Shown: piece by piece, positions 25,946 through 35,519 of the stretch
How positions within the stretch are numbered: the stretch's first letter is position 1
How the letters are laid out: every line of letters starts with the position of its first letter
Assembly (NCBI GenBank): GCA_020342115.1
Contig: CP070841.1
Location: 39,427-89,181, forward strand
Direction of reading: 5' to 3'
Length of the DNA: 49,755 nucleotides
From: Spirochaetota bacterium
Lineage (GTDB): Bacteria > Spirochaetota > B62-G9 > DRHN01
Notes under the pieces: generated by a model
Seen by the model: only the letters and a program-made list of their open reading frames with translations
Database searches by the model: none
Told to the model about the DNA's origin: nothing
Position numbers and translations under genes: made by a program

Positions 25946-27592
25946 TCAGTGTGGCTCGAACATGTTTCCCGGGGTCAGGATCCCCTTCGGATCCAGAACA
26001 TGTTTTATGGTTTTCATCATCTGGATTTCATTACGAGTATAAAGAAGGGCGAGGTATTCCCTTTTCAGTTTTCCAATACCATGCTCTGCAGAGACGGTTC
26101 CTCCGAGAGACACTGCCTTCCTGGCAAACATACCGTAGAGCTTTTTAGCTCTCTCGAGCTCGGTATGGCTGTCGGGAATCATGTTCACATGAAGATGATT
26201 GTTCCCAATATGTCCGAATATCACGTACCGAAGACTTTCTCCGTCCAGAGTCTCTCTGTAAAAATCGACCATTTCAGCAAGATGTGAATCAGGAACTGCC
26301 ATATCGGTTCCGACTTTGTGTATTCGAGGATCCATTCTTTTATTCTGAGCTATTATCTTATTTATAGTCTCAGGAAGACTGTGTCTAAAGCTTTTTAATC
26401 GAAGGAGATCTCGTTTGCTGATCGCTCCCCAAGAAACAGCCGGGTCCCCTCCTGACTTTTCAATAAGCATCTGCCACTTTTTGATACTTTCATTCATATC
26501 ATCCTTCTTCTCCCCACGCCACCCGGCACTCTCAAAGTACACAGCGTATACATTGATTTTCGTATTATCCGATATTCCTGAGATATAAGGAATTTCGGGA
26601 ATCTCTGAGGTAGGGCCCTGTATTTTTCTCGTCTCATCGAGAAGCAAGAGAGAACCTGAATCAAAATACTCGAGGGCAAGCGGTTTTTGATCACCATTTC
26701 TGGCATTAATGACAAAATCGACTGCATGTTTCTCACTATTGAAAAACCCAACTCCCCCGATGTATGAAACCGGCTCCGGGATGAGAACTATGGTGACATT
26801 GACTATTATACCCAAAATCCCCTCGCTTCCGATAAAGAGATCGATTATGTCCATTCCTCTTTTTGAGAAAAGACCGGCGGAATGCTTGGTCTCGGGTATA
26901 GTATACCCTGGAAATGGCAGTCGAATCGGTGTACCCCCTTCTCTCCTTATAGAAAAGTATCCGTTATTTTCTTTTACCTCACCACGCCTGATTCTTAAAA
27001 GCTCGCCGCTAGTGAGAACAACCTCCATTCCCACCACCCATCTTCTTGTTGGACCATAGTAAAAAGTCCTCGCACCGGATGCATTAGTGGCAACTGTTCC
27101 ACCGAGCATTGCCGTTGTTTCGGTGGGATCAGGTGGATAGAGAAACGTTTGACTGCTTTCGATGAAACGCTCCATTGAGCTTCCTTCGATACCTAGTTCT
27201 CTACTTCTAACCTTTGTCACAAGTTCGCTCAGTCTCAGTCCGCTTTCAACCTTCAGCTCGAAACTACCGGACTTGCTAGAAAGCGTGAGAATGCGTTTCA
27301 TCTTTTCAAGAGAAAGCAACCACCCTCCTTCAGCTACAGCCCCAGCACATATACCTGTTCTTCCACCCGAGATAGTAATGAATTTCCCCCTTTTTTGAGC
27401 TTCTCTGACTATGTAAGACACATGCTTGATGTTTTCCGGAAAAAAGAGCTTTTCAACACCAGATCCGAATGTATTTGACTCATCCTTGAGGTAATCTGAA
27501 TATTCCTCTCGTATACGGCTTTCGCCATCAACAATTCCCATGCCGTCACTGTGTGCGTTTATGTTGTAAATCCCGGTTGGATAATCCCCCAC
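25946..27592 (-). CDS. FAD-linked 2-hydroxyacid (lactate/glycolate) dehydrogenase, GlcD type
   Basis: A 548-residue flavoprotein of the PCMH/VAO fold. The FAD-binding part has ISGGRTGICAGA (about 74-85) and PPDPTETTAMLGGTVATNASG; the C-terminal FAD-oxidase domain has GHIGNNHLHVN and SAEHGIGKLKREYL, both standard for GlcD and D-lactate dehydrogenases. The start is a GTG 1 nt after the etfA stop, so translation is coupled. In the order etfB-etfA-glcD it matches the lactate dehydrogenase/Etf complexes of anaerobes, in which lactate oxidation to pyruvate is driven by flavin-based electron confurcation. Substrate is inferred; other 2-hydroxyacids are possible. Confidence 0.88.
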   Translation of the reverse strand: MGDYPTGIYNINAHSDGMGIVDGESRIREEYSDYLKDESNTFGSGVEKLFFPENIKHVSYIVREAQKRGKFITISGGRTGICAGAVAEGGWLLSLEKMKRILTLSSKSGSFELKVESGLRLSELVTKVRSRELGIEGSSMERFIESSQTFLYPPDPTETTAMLGGTVATNASGARTFYYGPTRRWVVGMEVVLTSGELLRIRRGEVKENNGYFSIRREGGTPIRLPFPGYTIPETKHSAGLFSKRGMDIIDLFIGSEGILGIIVNVTIVLIPEPVSYIGGVGFFNSEKHAVDFVINARNGDQKPLALEYFDSGSLLLLDETRKIQGPTSEIPEIPYISGISDNTKINVYAVYFESAGWRGEKKDDMNESIKKWQMLIEKSGGDPAVSWGAISKRDLLRLKSFRHSLPETINKIIAQNKRMDPRIHKVGTDMAVPDSHLAEMVDFYRETLDGESLRYVIFGHIGNNHLHVNMIPDSHTELERAKKLYGMFARKAVSLGGTVSAEHGIGKLKREYLALLYTRNEIQMMKTIKHVLDPKGILTPGNMFEPH

Positions 27593-27593
27593 T

Positions 27594-28580
27594 TTATTTT
27601 AACCTCTCAATGATCTTCGGTAATATCTCATACAGATCACCAACAATCCCATAATCGGCAATCTCAAATATAGGAGCGTCAGGATCCTCATTGATAGCGA
27701 TGATAGTCTCGGATCCCTTCATGCCGGCAAGATGCTGTATTGCCCCTGATATTCCACACGCTATGTAAAGCCTTGGATTAACCGTATGGCCTGTTTGACC
27801 GACCTGATGAGAATTGCTTATCCATCCAAGATCCACTGCTCCTCTGGATGCTCCAACAACGCCGTTAAGTTTGTGTGCAAGTTTTTCAAGTAACCCGAAT
27901 CCTGCACTTGCTCCCAATCCTCTCCCCCCTGATACTACCACCTCTGATTCTGTGATGTCGAACTTTTCTTTCTCTATTACTGTTTCCAGCACCTTGAGAG
28001 GTGATATCCCGCTCACATTATAATGACGCTTTTCGATCTCTATTTTACAGGCTCTCCTTACCATGTCCATCCCGAAGACATGAGGCCGAACCGTTGCCAT
28101 CTGAGGTCTCTTGACAGCACACTCAATAGTCGCAAGAATGTTCCCCCCAAATGCAGGTCTTGTCTGCAGAAGGATATTTCTCTCGGGATCGACTTCGAGT
28201 TCTGTACAATCAGCAGTGAGCCCGGTTCCTAACTTTACCGCAAGAAGCGGCATAACGCTCCTGCCAAGAAATGTTGCTCCTGCAAGCAGAATCGAAGGTT
28301 TACTTTCCTTCACTGCAGCATAGAGCAGCTCTGCGATCTCTATATAGTCATAAGAGCCATGCGAAGCCTCTTCTTCCCCGAATAGAGAGATGACCTTCTC
28401 TGCTCCATAAGAGGAGAGCATATCTCTCTGTGAAACTTTCAGTTTCCCAATACAGGCAGCAATTACACTCCCTGAAAGGTGCTCGTTGAGCAGGCAACCC
28501 TTAGCAAGAAGCTCGAACACCACCGGATTAATCTCTTCCTCTCTTTTCTCAACAAAAACCCATAAATCCCCTGTACTCAT
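27594..28580 (-). CDS. etfA: Electron transfer flavoprotein alpha subunit
   Basis: A 328-residue EtfA. The C-terminal FAD-binding domain is clear: VSGGRGLGASAGFGLLEKLA, SRGAVDLGWISNSHQVGQTG and PRLYIACGISGAIQHLAGM. The N-terminal domain is shortened and ordinary; there is no ferredoxin-like extension with Cys motifs, unlike some Lct EtfA proteins. The ATG follows etfB by 6 nt with AGGAG upstream. Together with EtfB it carries two flavins and passes electrons between the GlcD-type dehydrogenase and NAD/ferredoxin or a quinone pathway. Confidence 0.93.
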   Translation of the reverse strand: MSTGDLWVFVEKREEEINPVVFELLAKGCLLNEHLSGSVIAACIGKLKVSQRDMLSSYGAEKVISLFGEEEASHGSYDYIEIAELLYAAVKESKPSILLAGATFLGRSVMPLLAVKLGTGLTADCTELEVDPERNILLQTRPAFGGNILATIECAVKRPQMATVRPHVFGMDMVRRACKIEIEKRHYNVSGISPLKVLETVIEKEKFDITESEVVVSGGRGLGASAGFGLLEKLAHKLNGVVGASRGAVDLGWISNSHQVGQTGHTVNPRLYIACGISGAIQHLAGMKGSETIIAINEDPDAPIFEIADYGIVGDLYEILPKIIERLK

Positions 28581-28586
28581 ACCAAG

Positions 28587-29384
28587 CTATCTCCTGTACA
28601 GGCCTTTGTGCTTCAGCACATCGATAAATTCAGCACTCATCTGTTCGAGATTTCCCTCAATGTAGCTTGTACTTCCCTTCCCTTCAGGTGAAAATATTTT
28701 CTTTACTCGTGTTGGTGAGCCTTTCAATCCGCATCTCTTGATATCGGCTCCTATATCATCCGGACCCAGCCTCACTACATTCCTTTCAAAGGAGCTCACA
28801 ATACCATCAATAGTAGGAATCCTAAGCCTTTGCCTCGCCTTTACCACTGTAAGTACAGAAGGTATTGGTGCCTTGATAACCTGCTTTCCATTATCAATCA
28901 TTCGCTCTACAACAACTGATCGCTTTTCGACTTTTATTACATCAGACACAAAGGTGACAACAGGTAAGTCCAGATATGCTGAAACCTCCGGCCCCACCTG
29001 TGCAGTATCACCGTCTATGGCCTGTTTGCCAAAGAGCAAAAGATCATACTTCCCTATAGTTTTTATTGCCCTACTTATGGTATATGAGGTTGCAAGTGTA
29101 TCAGCACCTGCAAAATCACCCTTTGTAAGAAGATATGCCTTCTCTGCTCCTAATGTGAGCGAATCTCGTAATATACATTCCGCATCAGGTATCCCCATAC
29201 TCAGCACAGTAATCCTGCCGCCTACTGCCTCTTTAATCTCAAGTGCAAGCTCGAGTGCACTTTCGTCAAAGGGATTCATTATACTTGGAACTCCCTTTCT
29301 TATGAGAGTTCCTCTTTCAGGATCTATTTTAACCTTCTGTGTGTCTGGAACCTGCTTCATGCATACGAGTATCTCAAGCCCCAC
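28587..29384 (-). CDS. etfB: Electron transfer flavoprotein beta subunit
   Basis: A 265-residue EtfB. The start CMKQVPDTQKVKID and the MNPFDESALELALEIKE helix are standard. Residues 119-131 read GKQAIDGDTAQVG: the DGDTAQVG form is the one found in flavin-based bifurcating Etfs that bind a second FAD, whereas classical AMP-binding EtfB proteins have a DDDxNQT-type sequence there (knowledge of the family, from memory). The start is a GTG with GGAGG 6 nt upstream. It is the first gene of the etfB-etfA-glcD operon, divergent from the thioesterase gene at 29585. Confidence 0.93.
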   Translation of the reverse strand: MGLEILVCMKQVPDTQKVKIDPERGTLIRKGVPSIMNPFDESALELALEIKEAVGGRITVLSMGIPDAECILRDSLTLGAEKAYLLTKGDFAGADTLATSYTISRAIKTIGKYDLLLFGKQAIDGDTAQVGPEVSAYLDLPVVTFVSDVIKVEKRSVVVERMIDNGKQVIKAPIPSVLTVVKARQRLRIPTIDGIVSSFERNVVRLGPDDIGADIKRCGLKGSPTRVKKIFSPEGKGSTSYIEGNLEQMSAEFIDVLKHKGLYRR

Positions 29385-29584: not shown

Positions 29585-30010
29585 ATGAACCAGGAGACCA
29601 CCTTACAAAGAATAAAAGAGCTCATTGATAATGGCGACATGCTTCTCAAGCTCTTCAATATGGAGGTCACAGAATACAACGAGGGCATTGCCTCGGTTCG
29701 TATGAAAGTGAGAGACTCACATCTCAATGCGGCTAACATCTGTCATGGTGGAGTGGTCTTTTCCCTGGCTGATGTCGCTTTTGCATTAGCTTCGAACAGC
29801 TACGGCAATGTCGCTCTCGCCCTTGATATGAGTATAAGCTATTTGAAGGCTGTGCGCTCAGGTACAATACTCACTGCACGCTGCAGCGAGTGTAAGCGTA
29901 GCAGGCGTATAGGAACCTACCTCATAGAGGTGAAGGATGCATCTGGAGATCTCGTGGCTCTTCTCAAAGCAACTGCATTTATAAAGGAAACCCCCCACTT
30001 TAACGATTAA
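29585..30010 (+). CDS. Hotdog-fold thioesterase, PaaI family
   Basis: A 141-residue single hotdog domain. NICHGGVVFSLADVAFALASNSYG contains the family's HGG-x(6)-D active-site pattern, and the following strands (ALDMSISYLKAVRSG) fit PaaI. These enzymes hydrolyse acyl-CoA thioesters, often phenylacetyl-CoA or medium-chain acyl-CoA; the substrate here is unknown. It is transcribed away from etfB with a 200-nt intergenic gap that must contain both promoters. Weak ribosome-binding site (GGAG before AAAAT). Confidence 0.85.
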   Translation: MNQETTLQRIKELIDNGDMLLKLFNMEVTEYNEGIASVRMKVRDSHLNAANICHGGVVFSLADVAFALASNSYGNVALALDMSISYLKAVRSGTILTARCSECKRSRRIGTYLIEVKDASGDLVALLKATAFIKETPHFND

Positions 30011-30151
30011 ATAGTAGATGAATAACACTTACTAATTAGCAATTAGCCTAATGTCAGACTTAAATGGATCGATATTTCAAATAGAGCCACTGAATCACGG
30101 GTATGAAAACTATCCGGTTTATTGTACCTCGCATAATGCAAGGAGAAGTCC

Positions 30152-32383
30152 TTGAATAAAGTCATAATGATTATTGGGGCAGGAATTCTTCAGGTCCCTG
30201 CAATAAAGATAGCAAGAGAGATGGGCCTCTTGACTCTCGTCACAGACTACAATCCAACCGCATATGGAATGAAATTTGCCGATTTTCCTGTTGTTATGAG
30301 CACTCGTGATGTGGATGGAACTGTGAGGATAGCCAAGCAATTTGTGAAACAACGGAGGATCGATGGTGTCATTACTGTAGGAACAGATGCATCTCTCACT
30401 GTAGCAGCGGTCCAGCATGCCCTCGATCTCCCCGGCAACCGTATCGATGTAGCAGAAGCAACAACCCACAAGATCAAGATGCGACAGAGGCTTGAGGATA
30501 ACGGGATACCTCAACCTGTTTTCTTTGCCTGCTGGACCTATGATGATGTTGTCAGCAGCGGAAAGAAGATCGGGTTTCCTTTTGTGATAAAACCTGTAGA
30601 CAATATGGGAGCCAGAGGGGTTATGCGGGTCAATAAACCTGAGGTCATCCGTTTTGCCTATGAGCGTGCAAAGAATGCATCGCCGCGAGGGGAGATAATC
30701 ACAGAAGGATTCATGGACGGTCCAGAGCTGAGTATAGATGCTCTTGTCTGGGATGGCGAAATATACGTTAGAGGGGTTGCTGATCGAATTATAGAGTTTC
30801 CTCCTTATTTTGTAGAGACAGGCCACATCATGCCCACCGAACTTCCCGAAGCTCAAGTCAAGGAAGCCTTATCTGTTTTTAAGAACGGTGTCCATGCACT
30901 CGGCATCGAAACAGGTGCAGCAAAGGGGGATATTAAGATTACATCTGATGGCGCTAAAGTGGGAGAAATCGCCTCTCGTCTCTCGGGCGGTTTTATGTCC
31001 GCATACACATATCCATACTCATCAGGGGTGAACCTGATAAAGGCAGCTCTCAACATCGCCATGGGTGAACTTCCCGGAGATATTTCCGAAAAATATCAGC
31101 GTGTGTCAGTGGAACGCGCCATAATTCCCGGAAGTGGTATTGTAAGAGAGATAGAGGGAGTTGCTGAAGCCCTCTCGATAAAGAATGTAAAGAATGTCTT
31201 TGTCACCTGTGATAAAGGAGATACTGTTCATATTCCGACAAACAATGTTGAAAAGTGTGGAAATGTCATCGCAGTTGCTGATACCCGTGAGGAAGCTCTC
31301 AGGGATGCTAATCTTGGTATTAAACTTGTGAGGATCACTCTTGGAGATGAGGGTGAACTTAATGAGGGGCTTCTTAGAAAAGAGGCTCTGGGAAAGCTCG
31401 GCGGTATCTGCTCGGTGTGCAGAACATGTGATGGAAAAGAGTGTGCCGGCTGGATTCCCGGAATCGGTTCAAAGGGGGCTGGAGAAGGATTTTTTAGGAA
31501 TATACAGATCCTGCGAAATTTCGTCATCGTACCTGATCTTTTAAAAAGAATAGACAATACCAACACCGGAAGCAACATTTTCGGTATTCCTCTCGACCTT
31601 CCCATGCTTCCTGCACCTATTTCCAACATAAGAAGGAATCTTCGAGGTCTTTATTCAGAGAAGGAATACAACCGAATACTGCTTCAGGGAGCAAAACGAT
31701 CCGGAACCATAGGCTGTATCTCCCAGATGGAGTATGAGGAAGAGGTGAATGATATTGATTACCTGATAAACCCTATCAAAGACGCCTATGGTCATGGGAT
31801 ACCTTTTTTCGATCCCTATTGTGGAGAAAACACCACTTTGAAAAACATCGAAAAGGCATTCCAGGCGGGTGTAAAGGTTTGCGGGCTTACCCTTGATCTC
31901 AAAGACAGTCCAGGAGCGACACTAATAGATGAATATTGGCTTAGTGATATCATCAAAAAGGCCCCTGTCCCTGTTATTATAAAGGGAGTTCTCACAACTG
32001 ATAATGTTGTGAAGGCAATGGATGCGGGTGCCAAGGGAATAGTCTTATCTAATCGAGGAGGGAGAATCCTCTCGAGCCTTCCATCTGGAATCGAAGTGGT
32101 AAAAGATGTTAGGAGTAGCTGCGGTAATAACCTTCTGATAATTGTTGATGGCGGTATCAGGAACGGAGAGGATATGTTCAAAGCGCTCTCACAGGGTGCA
32201 GATCTTGTGATGATCGGAAGACCGATCTTTATCGCTCTTGCTGCAAAAGAAGAGGAGGGAGTTTCCTTCTATATAGACAAGATTAAAAGAGATTTTATAA
32301 CCACAATGCTTGTGTCAGGCGCAAAGACTGTAAAGGATATTACTCCGCAAATGACTCAGCACAGTATCCTCCCACTTTATTAA
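30152..32383 (+). CDS. ATP-grasp ligase fused to an FMN-dependent 2-hydroxyacid-dehydrogenase-like domain
   Basis: A 743-residue fusion. Residues 1-400: a carbamoyl-phosphate-synthase/PurK-like ATP-grasp enzyme (IIGAGILQVPAIKIAREM pre-ATP-grasp domain; FPFVIKPVDNMGARGVM; ETGAAKGDIKIT; GEIASRLSGG). Residues about 425-743: a TIM barrel of the FMN-dependent alpha-hydroxyacid dehydrogenase family, opening with the Cys cluster CSVCRTCDGKEC, as in many anaerobe members, then VDGGIRNGEDMFKALSQGADLVMIGRP at the phosphate site. The usual catalytic SNHGGR is SNRGGR here (Arg635, codon CGA), so simple alpha-hydroxyacid oxidation is doubtful. Start is TTG with AGGAGA 5 nt upstream. Substrates unknown. 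Confidence 0.85.
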   Translation: MNKVIMIIGAGILQVPAIKIAREMGLLTLVTDYNPTAYGMKFADFPVVMSTRDVDGTVRIAKQFVKQRRIDGVITVGTDASLTVAAVQHALDLPGNRIDVAEATTHKIKMRQRLEDNGIPQPVFFACWTYDDVVSSGKKIGFPFVIKPVDNMGARGVMRVNKPEVIRFAYERAKNASPRGEIITEGFMDGPELSIDALVWDGEIYVRGVADRIIEFPPYFVETGHIMPTELPEAQVKEALSVFKNGVHALGIETGAAKGDIKITSDGAKVGEIASRLSGGFMSAYTYPYSSGVNLIKAALNIAMGELPGDISEKYQRVSVERAIIPGSGIVREIEGVAEALSIKNVKNVFVTCDKGDTVHIPTNNVEKCGNVIAVADTREEALRDANLGIKLVRITLGDEGELNEGLLRKEALGKLGGICSVCRTCDGKECAGWIPGIGSKGAGEGFFRNIQILRNFVIVPDLLKRIDNTNTGSNIFGIPLDLPMLPAPISNIRRNLRGLYSEKEYNRILLQGAKRSGTIGCISQMEYEEEVNDIDYLINPIKDAYGHGIPFFDPYCGENTTLKNIEKAFQAGVKVCGLTLDLKDSPGATLIDEYWLSDIIKKAPVPVIIKGVLTTDNVVKAMDAGAKGIVLSNRGGRILSSLPSGIEVVKDVRSSCGNNLLIIVDGGIRNGEDMFKALSQGADLVMIGRPIFIALAAKEEEGVSFYIDKIKRDFITTMLVSGAKTVKDITPQMTQHSILPLY

Positions 32384-32483: not shown

Positions 32484-33878
32484 ATGACACAGACCCCATT
32501 CGATACAATAGCTGCTGTCTCAACACCTGCAGGTGAGGGTGGAGTCGGCATTGTCAGAATTTCTGGTGACAAGGCACTATCGATCATACAGGAGTTATTC
32601 TCTCCACACAAAAAAGGAAGATCTGTTACCAATCGTGATTCTTTTACCATGTCCCTCGGCTATATCAAGGATAAAGAGAAGATAATTGATGAAGTTCTGG
32701 TATCAATAATGCGTAAGCCTCACACTTACACACGAGAAGATATAGTAGAGATTAATTGTCACGGCGGTGCAGTTGCAGTAAATGAGGTACTGAGACTCGT
32801 ACTCAAAGAAGGCGCTCGGCTTGCAGACCCTGGTGAGTTTACAAAGCGTGCATTTCTCAACGGCAGGATAGATCTTGCTCAGGCAGAAGCTGTTCTTGAT
32901 ATTGTGAAGGCTAAGACTCACCGTTCACTCAAGACTGCCATTGAAATGCTGAAAGGAGAGCTCTCAGAAAAGATCAACCACCTCTCAAGCACCTTACAAG
33001 AGATTCTCATACTGCTCGAGGCAAATATCGACTTTTCGGAGGATGAAGACATCCCTCATATTGAATACAATAAAATTAAAAACCAGCTTTTGAAAATAAA
33101 AGACGAGCTTGAACAGCTCATCTCGAGTTTCGATACAGGCAAAATATACAGGGATGGGCTGCTCACAGTCATAGCCGGTAAGCCGAATGTGGGAAAATCG
33201 AGCATCATGAATGCCTTCCTCAGATTCGACAGAGCAATTGTGACTCCCATTCCAGGAACTACTCGCGACATCATCACCGAACAGCTCAATATCGATGGAG
33301 TACCCTTTATCCTTGCAGACACTGCAGGCATTACCGAAACCGATAGCGTTGTCGAGATAGAGGGGGTTAAGCGCTCAAAGTCATATATGAATTTAGCCGG
33401 ACTACTGCTCCTTGTCTTTGATGGATCAGAAGAATTAGATGAGAGAGATATAGATATTGCAAAGGGAGCGCAGTCAATACCGCATTTAACCGTGGTGAAC
33501 AAGATTGACCTTTCACAAAAACTGGATATAGATGATCTTGTGAAGAAAACCCGTATATCTACCCCTCCTGTATACCTTTCTGCCAAGAATGGTACAGGGT
33601 TGGAAGAGCTTGAAATGAAGATGCTGGAACATGTAAGGTCCGGGAGTGGTGGGGGTGATTATTCACTCATACTTACAAACACAAGACATTACAATATCTT
33701 AATAAAGGCCACAGGTGAGCTGGAACATGCTTTAAAAGCGGTTCAGCAGCGAAAGGGGGCCGAGCTTCTTGCCTTTGATGTAAGAAGTGCTATGGATATC
33801 CTAGGCGAGATAACGGGAAGAGTCTCTTCAAAAGACATACTCGACGATATATTTAGCAACTTCTGTATAGGAAAATGA
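32484..33878 (+). CDS. mnmE: tRNA modification GTPase MnmE
   Basis: With MnmG it forms the cmnm5/nm5 modification at U34 of several tRNAs. The 464 residues show the N-terminal tetrahydrofolate-binding domain (DTIAAVSTPAGEGGVGIVRISG), the helical domain, and an inserted Ras-like G domain: GKPNVGKSSIMNAF (near 231), DTAGI and NKID. The C-terminal CIGK ends the protein, as in functional MnmE. No mnmG is adjacent. There is no Shine-Dalgarno before the ATG. Confidence 0.97.
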   Translation: MTQTPFDTIAAVSTPAGEGGVGIVRISGDKALSIIQELFSPHKKGRSVTNRDSFTMSLGYIKDKEKIIDEVLVSIMRKPHTYTREDIVEINCHGGAVAVNEVLRLVLKEGARLADPGEFTKRAFLNGRIDLAQAEAVLDIVKAKTHRSLKTAIEMLKGELSEKINHLSSTLQEILILLEANIDFSEDEDIPHIEYNKIKNQLLKIKDELEQLISSFDTGKIYRDGLLTVIAGKPNVGKSSIMNAFLRFDRAIVTPIPGTTRDIITEQLNIDGVPFILADTAGITETDSVVEIEGVKRSKSYMNLAGLLLLVFDGSEELDERDIDIAKGAQSIPHLTVVNKIDLSQKLDIDDLVKKTRISTPPVYLSAKNGTGLEELEMKMLEHVRSGSGGGDYSLILTNTRHYNILIKATGELEHALKAVQQRKGAELLAFDVRSAMDILGEITGRVSSKDILDDIFSNFCIGK

Positions 33879-34610: not shown

Positions 34611-34646
34611 AAATGACAATCTAATCTCCTTTAATGGATGATTTTT

Positions 34647-35519
34647 ATGGCGAGGAAACCAAGAATAATAGGACCGCAATTATACCACCATATTTATGCT
34701 TGGGGGAATGATCATCATCCAATCTTTAAAAATAAATCAAACCATGAAATGTATTTGAATTTGTTACCTATGTATGCATCCCAAAACCAAATCGATGTTA
34801 TTGCTTATGCACTTATGGGTTCGCATGTGCATCTCTTTGTTTTCGATGCTGCAGGAAAGTTATCAAACTTTATGAATAACTTGCATGGTAGTTATGCACA
34901 ATATTTCAATACTACGTTAAAACGTGTAGGGCATGTCTTTGGTGAAAGATTCAATAGTAAAGTTGTTCAGTTTAATAACTATGGCGTATGGTTATCGCGA
35001 TATATTCATCGCCAACCAATAGAAGCTGGTTTAGTTAAGGATCCAAGGAGGTTTTCCTGGACGAGTTATCGTGCATATCTTGGATTGGAGAAAAAAGATT
35101 TTTTACAGACTGAGATTATCTTAAGTCAATTTGGTCTTGGTAAAATCGCGTTGCTAAGGTATGAAGATTTCGTTTTAGGAAAGCAAGATGACCAGGTTAA
35201 GTGGGATACAAACACGATATCAGTGATAGGAGATAATACATTTGTTGAACATTTTAATACAGTTTCTACAGGTATTGTAAAAAGATTAGTAGACAAACCA
35301 ATTGGTGAAGATTTAATTAAAATAACAGCTAACCATTTTAAATGTAAACTTGAAATATTAATGAATCCGATAGGTAGAGAGGAACGAAAGCTTCGTCACA
35401 GGGCTTTTGATTACTTAGTTAATGAGCATGGATTATCTGCAAGACATGTTTCCCGCTTGTTTAACGTTACTCCAAAGGCAGTAGTCAAATCTATAAGATG
35501 CACAGCTAGGACAACCTGA
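34647..35519 (+). CDS. REP-associated tyrosine transposase (IS200-like HUH, RAYT)
   Basis: An HUH single-strand nuclease of the TnpA_REP family. The opening (MARKPRIIGPQLYHHIYAWGN) is typical; the HUH metal site is H60-V-H62 in ALMGSHVHLF, and the catalytic Tyr is Y112 in NNYGVWLSRYIHRQP. The C-terminal part (about 215-290) looks like a DnaA-type helix-turn-helix (LRHRAFDYLVNEHGLSARHVSRLF), as in many RAYTs, and probably recognises the flanking repeat. Base composition is visibly more AT-rich than folE and tyrS, suggesting transfer. The start at 34647 is preferred over ATGs at 34634 and 34638, with only weak ribosome-binding sequence for any of them. Confidence 0.9.
   Translation: MARKPRIIGPQLYHHIYAWGNDHHPIFKNKSNHEMYLNLLPMYASQNQIDVIAYALMGSHVHLFVFDAAGKLSNFMNNLHGSYAQYFNTTLKRVGHVFGERFNSKVVQFNNYGVWLSRYIHRQPIEAGLVKDPRRFSWTSYRAYLGLEKKDFLQTEIILSQFGLGKIALLRYEDFVLGKQDDQVKWDTNTISVIGDNTFVEHFNTVSTGIVKRLVDKPIGEDLIKITANHFKCKLEILMNPIGREERKLRHRAFDYLVNEHGLSARHVSRLFNVTPKAVVKSIRCTARTT

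Follow-up and report, generated by a model that had tools for sequence, protein, structure and literature searches.

The window, i.e. the whole stretch of 49,755 nucleotides that was analysed, belongs to a genome assembled as a single contig of 3.53 Mb. Read directly from the sequence, an open reading frame of 743 codons starts with TTG at position 30152 and stops at 32383. It encodes an ATP-grasp ligase fused to a flavin domain of the FMN_dh type. With matches counted against the curated Pfam cut-offs, the N-terminal half contains ATP-grasp_4 (46.2 bits, cut-off 27) and LAL_C2 (62.3 bits, cut-off 29.4), and the C-terminal half contains FMN_dh (PF01070; 176 bits, cut-off 24.9). The domain assignments of the original prediction were thus borne out. 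Its reading frame, coordinates and numbering (SNRGGR at residues 633-638) were right, and the FMN-phosphate motif (DGGIR, GRP) and the N-terminal Cys cluster (C420, C423, C426, C431) are present as it described. The features are the following:

30140..30145, + strand: ribosome-binding site AAGGAG serving the TTG start (read directly)
30152..32383, + strand: fusion gene, ATP-grasp ligase plus four-Cys FMN_dh-like domain, 743 aa (open reading frame, Pfam, homologs)
30152..31351, + strand: N-terminal ATP-grasp ligase half, residues 1-400 (Pfam, closest solved structures 3vot and 4dim)
31121..31342, + strand: LAL_C2 subdomain (L-amino acid ligase C-terminal domain 2), residues 324-397 (Pfam)
31379..32356, + strand: FMN_dh-like barrel half, residues 410-735 (Pfam, structural model)
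31409..31444, + strand: Cys cluster C420-x2-C423-x2-C426-x4-C431, possible Fe-S or Zn site (alignment)
31724..31726, + strand: Gln525; Gln in 8/8 of the window's order, Asp or Glu in every other fusion and stand-alone homolog
31811..31813, + strand: Asp554; Lys in 62/73 fusions and in all stand-alone homologs
31889..31891, + strand: Thr580; Ser or Thr in 8/8 of the window's order, Asp in all other homologs
31982..31984, + strand: Lys611, invariant active-site Lys of the family (alignment)
32048..32065, + strand: SNRGGR, residues 633-638, vs SNHGGR in the family; Arg638 of the family is kept (alignment)
32147..32161, + strand: DGGIR, residues 666-670, FMN-phosphate-binding motif, kept (alignment)
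32216..32224, + strand: GRP, residues 689-691, FMN-phosphate-binding motif, kept (alignment)

A full-chain AlphaFold2 model reached a mean pLDDT of 89.5 with a pTM of 0.63, so that the relative position of the two halves is unsure; modelled alone, the C-terminal half reached a pLDDT of 90.8 and a pTM of 0.91. The solved structure nearest to the N-terminal half is the L-amino acid ligase BL00235 (3vot, TM 0.87), with 4dim also close. For the C-terminal half, the best PDB matches found by Foldseek are alpha-hydroxyacid oxidases (TM 0.7-0.8, 20-28% identity). Sequence matches to the solved chains begin past the Cys cluster, which is therefore without precedent in those chains, and the searches that we ran found no solved structure for the four-Cys flavin subfamily. 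In the ligase half, the invariant residues K107, K147, E185, E192, D260, E272 and R276 are all intact; K107, K147, E185, D260, E272 and R276, invariant in 57 fusions, would by analogy bind ATP and Mg.

Distribution of the fusion and of its separate domains

We gathered 73 fusions from Spirochaetota, a few of them partial, which rejects the idea that the fusion could be absent outside this assembly. The whole fusion shares 68-72% identity with its counterparts in seven further genomes of the order, and full-length identity is about 40-48% across much of the phylum, a conservation far beyond chance. A homolog was present in all of the 41 related genomes, most often as the full fusion, and a fusion 71% identical to that of the window was found in record DRHN01000343.1 (Spirochaetes bacterium HyVt-370). 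From 393 Spirochaetota genomes, 174 carry the flavin domain (E <= 1e-15), partly in fusions of 740-800 aa and partly as stand-alone proteins of 340-390 aa. In genomes without the fusion, the ligase half is often present alone (400-565 aa).

Outside Spirochaetota, the search for the fusion covered essentially 249 Pseudomonadota genomes, none of which had a match spanning both halves, and 72,556 plasmids, from which the fusion was absent. A scan of genome contigs matched only a near relative. One Clostridia replicon and one record of nearly genome size carry stand-alone, His-bearing homologs with the four Cys.

Several variants of this architecture were observed. In genome G023, a fusion of 724 aa (L095:4387-6558) combines a His-bearing flavin half with an ATP-grasp half that is highly divergent (24% identity); the genome also has a separate ligase gene, and the fusion is possibly an independent event. 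Three stand-alone ligases (L097:5372-7057, L098:4693-6366 and L099:5740-7416) have about 130-150 additional C-terminal residues in place of the flavin half, a stretch seemingly common to all three. Two stand-alone flavin homologs (L071:2298-3338 and L072:4628-5734) show an altered Cys motif, CGVY...CDG...C, the first lying near genes for a fumarase-like protein, an aminotransferase and an MTTB-type methyltransferase.

Residue 635 and constraint on the flavin half

In the alpha-hydroxyacid dehydrogenase family, the His of SNHGGR is the catalytic active-site base (PMC10153336), so that the canonical 2-hydroxyacid chemistry should be lost in a domain with Arg at this position. The alignment confirmed the predicted replacement of this His by Arg635 (codon 32054-32056). 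Of the 73 fusions, 60 have His at residue 635, 8 have Arg, 3 have Asn and 2 have Lys; the 21 stand-alone homologs all have His. The original prediction had named His-bearing homologs with lactate-oxidase-like activity as evidence against it: homologs with His are common, and none of them has a known activity. The eight Arg sequences correspond exactly to the order of the window (8 genomes from two families and seven genera); Arg635 is therefore neither a sequencing error nor a mutation of one genome.

Arg635 is fixed in this order along with D525Q, K554N/D and D580S/T, three positions that are nearly invariant elsewhere; residue 554 is Asn or Asp in 8/8 of the order and likewise in the decayed sequences of its sister lineage. 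When canonical family members were aligned by profile, the Thr and Asp of their TVD motif fell at residues 580 and 582, respectively, while positions 525 and 554 were placed at the canonical substrate/FMN loops by eye, a less sure assignment. The four Cys, K611, D582, R638, DGGxR and GRP are intact in 8/8 of the order, and the Cys cluster is kept in 70/73 fusions and 19/21 stand-alone homologs.

We then compared the evolution of the two halves, using two quick trees in which some long branches make the details uncertain. The tree built from the ligase half places next to the Arg order (SH-aLRT 98) a sister lineage in which residue 635 is Lys in two fusions (G156 and G136) and Asn in three (G015, G027 and G038). 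In these last three, the Cys cluster has disappeared together with GGR, DGGxR and GRP, and the ligase half is still conserved (57% identical to that of the window in G038). From its sequence, their flavin half (loci L110, L111 and L109, respectively) appears to be a natural pseudoenzyme domain. Since it is fully decayed beside a well-conserved ligase, there is no obligatory coupling between the two activities. In G140 (locus L058), which is related to G156, the His has been kept in a gene cut by the contig end. With the Arg, Lys and Asn lineages, this indicates repeated losses of the His inside a single clade, one of them leading to a dead barrel. In addition, ligase-only genes are nested among the fusions in the tree, with at least three changes of state.

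On the stem branch of the Arg order, the flavin half accumulated 1.49 changes per column vs 0.31 for the ligase half. The pairwise divergence ratio between the C- and N-terminal halves is 2.3 within the order, compared with about 1.2-1.4 in His-bearing fusions. Within the order, dN of the C-terminal half is only 0.17-0.34, whereas dS is above 2 or saturated, which places this half under constraint. The flavin half of the Arg order thus seems to have changed rapidly at first and then to have come under constraint.

Gene neighbourhood and function of the fusion

In the family of the window, the gene upstream of the fusion encodes a PaaI-like hotdog thioesterase (29585-30010) and the gene downstream is mnmE (32484-33878). 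We looked for a shared operon across about 100 loci and found none: the neighbours change by family (TPR, STAS, SpoIIE, GGDEF-like, glpX, mnm and other genes) and define no pathway. In seven loci (L058, L084, L100, L109, L110, L111 and L118), the fusion or ligase gene is followed by a conserved protein of 330-350 aa without Pfam match and with faint similarity to GGDEF, a TPR gene mostly coming next. Within the window, a protein resembling REP-associated/Y1-type transposases was recognised by eye at 34638-35519 (+ strand).

Divergent from the thioesterase-fusion pair, genes for a GlcD-like FAD-linked oxidase, EtfA and EtfB lie at 25946-29384 (- strand), an arrangement also seen in L138. These gene types are those of the electron-bifurcating lactate dehydrogenase of acetogens; other enzymes may therefore handle 2-hydroxyacid oxidation here.

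The reading that we favour, with moderate confidence, is that the flavin half in this order serves as a cofactor-binding module put to an altered or regulatory use, the ligase being the conserved function and no 2-hydroxyacid oxidation taking place. The protein would be a single-chain protein typical of Spirochaetota. Judging from its family, fold and invariant residues, the N-terminal half is probably active as an ATP-grasp ligase, similar in type to the L-amino acid ligases, and would convert a carboxylate to an acyl-phosphate and join it to an amine. The C-terminal half would descend from a four-Cys, FMN-binding barrel similar to 2-hydroxyacid dehydrogenases, and with Arg635 in place of His it should no longer perform His-dependent oxidation of 2-hydroxyacids in this order. 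Purifying selection maintains the Cys cluster, Lys611, Asp582, Arg638 and the FMN-phosphate motif in the C-terminal half, which is therefore still expected to hold FMN and a metal cluster. It may work as a flavoenzyme of altered activity or as a redox- or FMN-dependent module that serves the ligase. In favour of this reading are the four replacements shared by all 8 genomes of the order beside intact cofactor motifs, the constraint on the C-terminal half after its rapid change, the intact residues and the fold of the ligase half, and the conservation of that half even in proteins whose flavin half is dead or missing. Against it, the C-terminal half evolves about two times faster than the N-terminal half, as under relaxed constraint, and in the sister lineage the flavin half has ended up fully decayed. 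Moreover, the inter-domain arrangement is uncertain in the model (pTM 0.63) and the genomic context gives no pointer to a new reaction.

The raised divergence of the C-terminal half, the state of the sister lineage and the nesting of ligase genes without flavin half among the fusions would also be expected if this half were a pseudoenzyme in slow decay, i.e. if the dehydrogenase had become dispensable in the ancestor of the clade and the barrel were only a structural part of the ligase. We regard this as a real, if tentative, possibility. However, the cofactor motifs and the residues newly acquired at the altered positions are fixed in all 8 genomes over order-level divergence, whereas under decay the Cys cluster and the FMN motif should go early, as they did in the sister lineage. 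The job of the flavin half in the order of the window has probably changed, or the half is being retired.

The original prediction had suggested a different reaction. Four replaced positions in the active-site region beside intact cofactor motifs favour a non-canonical function; they name no reaction. Its examples, an isomerisation or a redox-coupled ligation in a small-molecule pathway, found no support, as the neighbourhoods give no pathway and the ligase half stands alone in several lineages. It is unlikely that Arg635 and its co-varying residues form a new flavoenzyme site. Such a site could, for example, be reductive, with FMN receiving electrons via the four-Cys cluster and Arg donating the proton, and it would produce or alter the carboxylate or amine for the fused ligase to join. 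If true, a flavin redox step and the ATP-driven formation of an amide would be coupled in one chain.

Retention of K611, R638 and D582 would suit a domain that still works as a 2-hydroxyacid dehydrogenase and uses Arg635 or another residue as the base, and in some oxidoreductases, such as IMP dehydrogenase and fumarate reductase, an Arg does serve as acid/base. Nevertheless, the base of this family is His (PMC10153336) and three more positions of the active-site region changed in the same lineage, which makes such a dehydrogenase quite improbable.

Finally, mnmE, mnmG or mnmA directly adjoins the fusion gene in 14/68 loci from four families (the window, L083, L085, L086, L089, L090, L091, L093, L132, L137, L138, L140, L154 and L155), and one of them likewise adjoins the stand-alone gene in L070. 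This frequency exceeds expectation, but the adjacency came to notice post hoc. The co-occurrence of the fusion with MnmL, MnmM and MnmC gave no support for a shared pathway, and the fusion as a substitute for MnmL/MnmC in tRNA U34 modification was rejected, the distributions not being complementary. Despite the adjacency, a role in tRNA wobble-uridine (xnm5s2U34) modification is very improbable, since most families have no such neighbour, MnmL-family radical SAM proteins pass the cut-off in 31/41 relatives with or without the fusion, and the MnmC methyltransferase domain comes and goes independently of it.

Returning to the cofactor-binding module that we favour, its setting is a bifunctional enzyme kept across many Spirochaetota families. 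The phylum offers a series from the intact site (60 fusions) through His-to-Lys or His-to-Arg replacements with cofactor motifs to the decayed barrel and the ligase alone. With this natural series, what the flavin half does, and how it is retired or repurposed inside the fusion, can be tested directly by comparing a few proteins.

Comparison with known systems

The literature that we searched held nothing relevant on such a ligase-flavoenzyme fusion. The whole N-terminal half is similar in fold to L-amino acid ligases (BL00235/3vot, RizA/4wd3, BacD/3vmm; LAL_C2, PF18603), with which it shares ATP-grasp_4 and LAL_C2 above cut-off and the conserved ATP/Mg residues. It differs from them by its low identity (about 25%) and by its fusion to a flavin barrel, and none of the NCBIfam ligase equivalogs reaches its cut-off.

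The C-terminal half has the barrel, the FMN-phosphate motif and the active-site Lys and Arg of FMN-dependent alpha-hydroxyacid oxidases and dehydrogenases (PF01070; glycolate, lactate and mandelate enzymes), from which it differs by the change of the catalytic His to Arg and by the added four-Cys cluster. It is not a member of L-lactate oxidase TIGR02708 (98.7 bits, cut-off 645.5), of the pre-mycofactocin synthase MftD TIGR03966 (89.9 bits, cut-off 470.85) or of type 2 IPP isomerase TIGR02151 (45.3 bits, cut-off 281.3), and it scores far under the cut-off of the NCBIfam LldD equivalog.

The same four-Cys cluster and barrel, at about 30-34% identity, occur in stand-alone proteins of Clostridia and spirochaetes annotated as “alpha-hydroxy-acid oxidizing protein” (e.g. 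Vescimonas WP_212821939.1), for which we found no characterisation in the literature searched. Unlike the protein of the window, they have no ATP-grasp half and keep SNHGGR as well as Asp, Lys and Asp at positions 525, 554 and 580. The protein of the window is a variant of known families.
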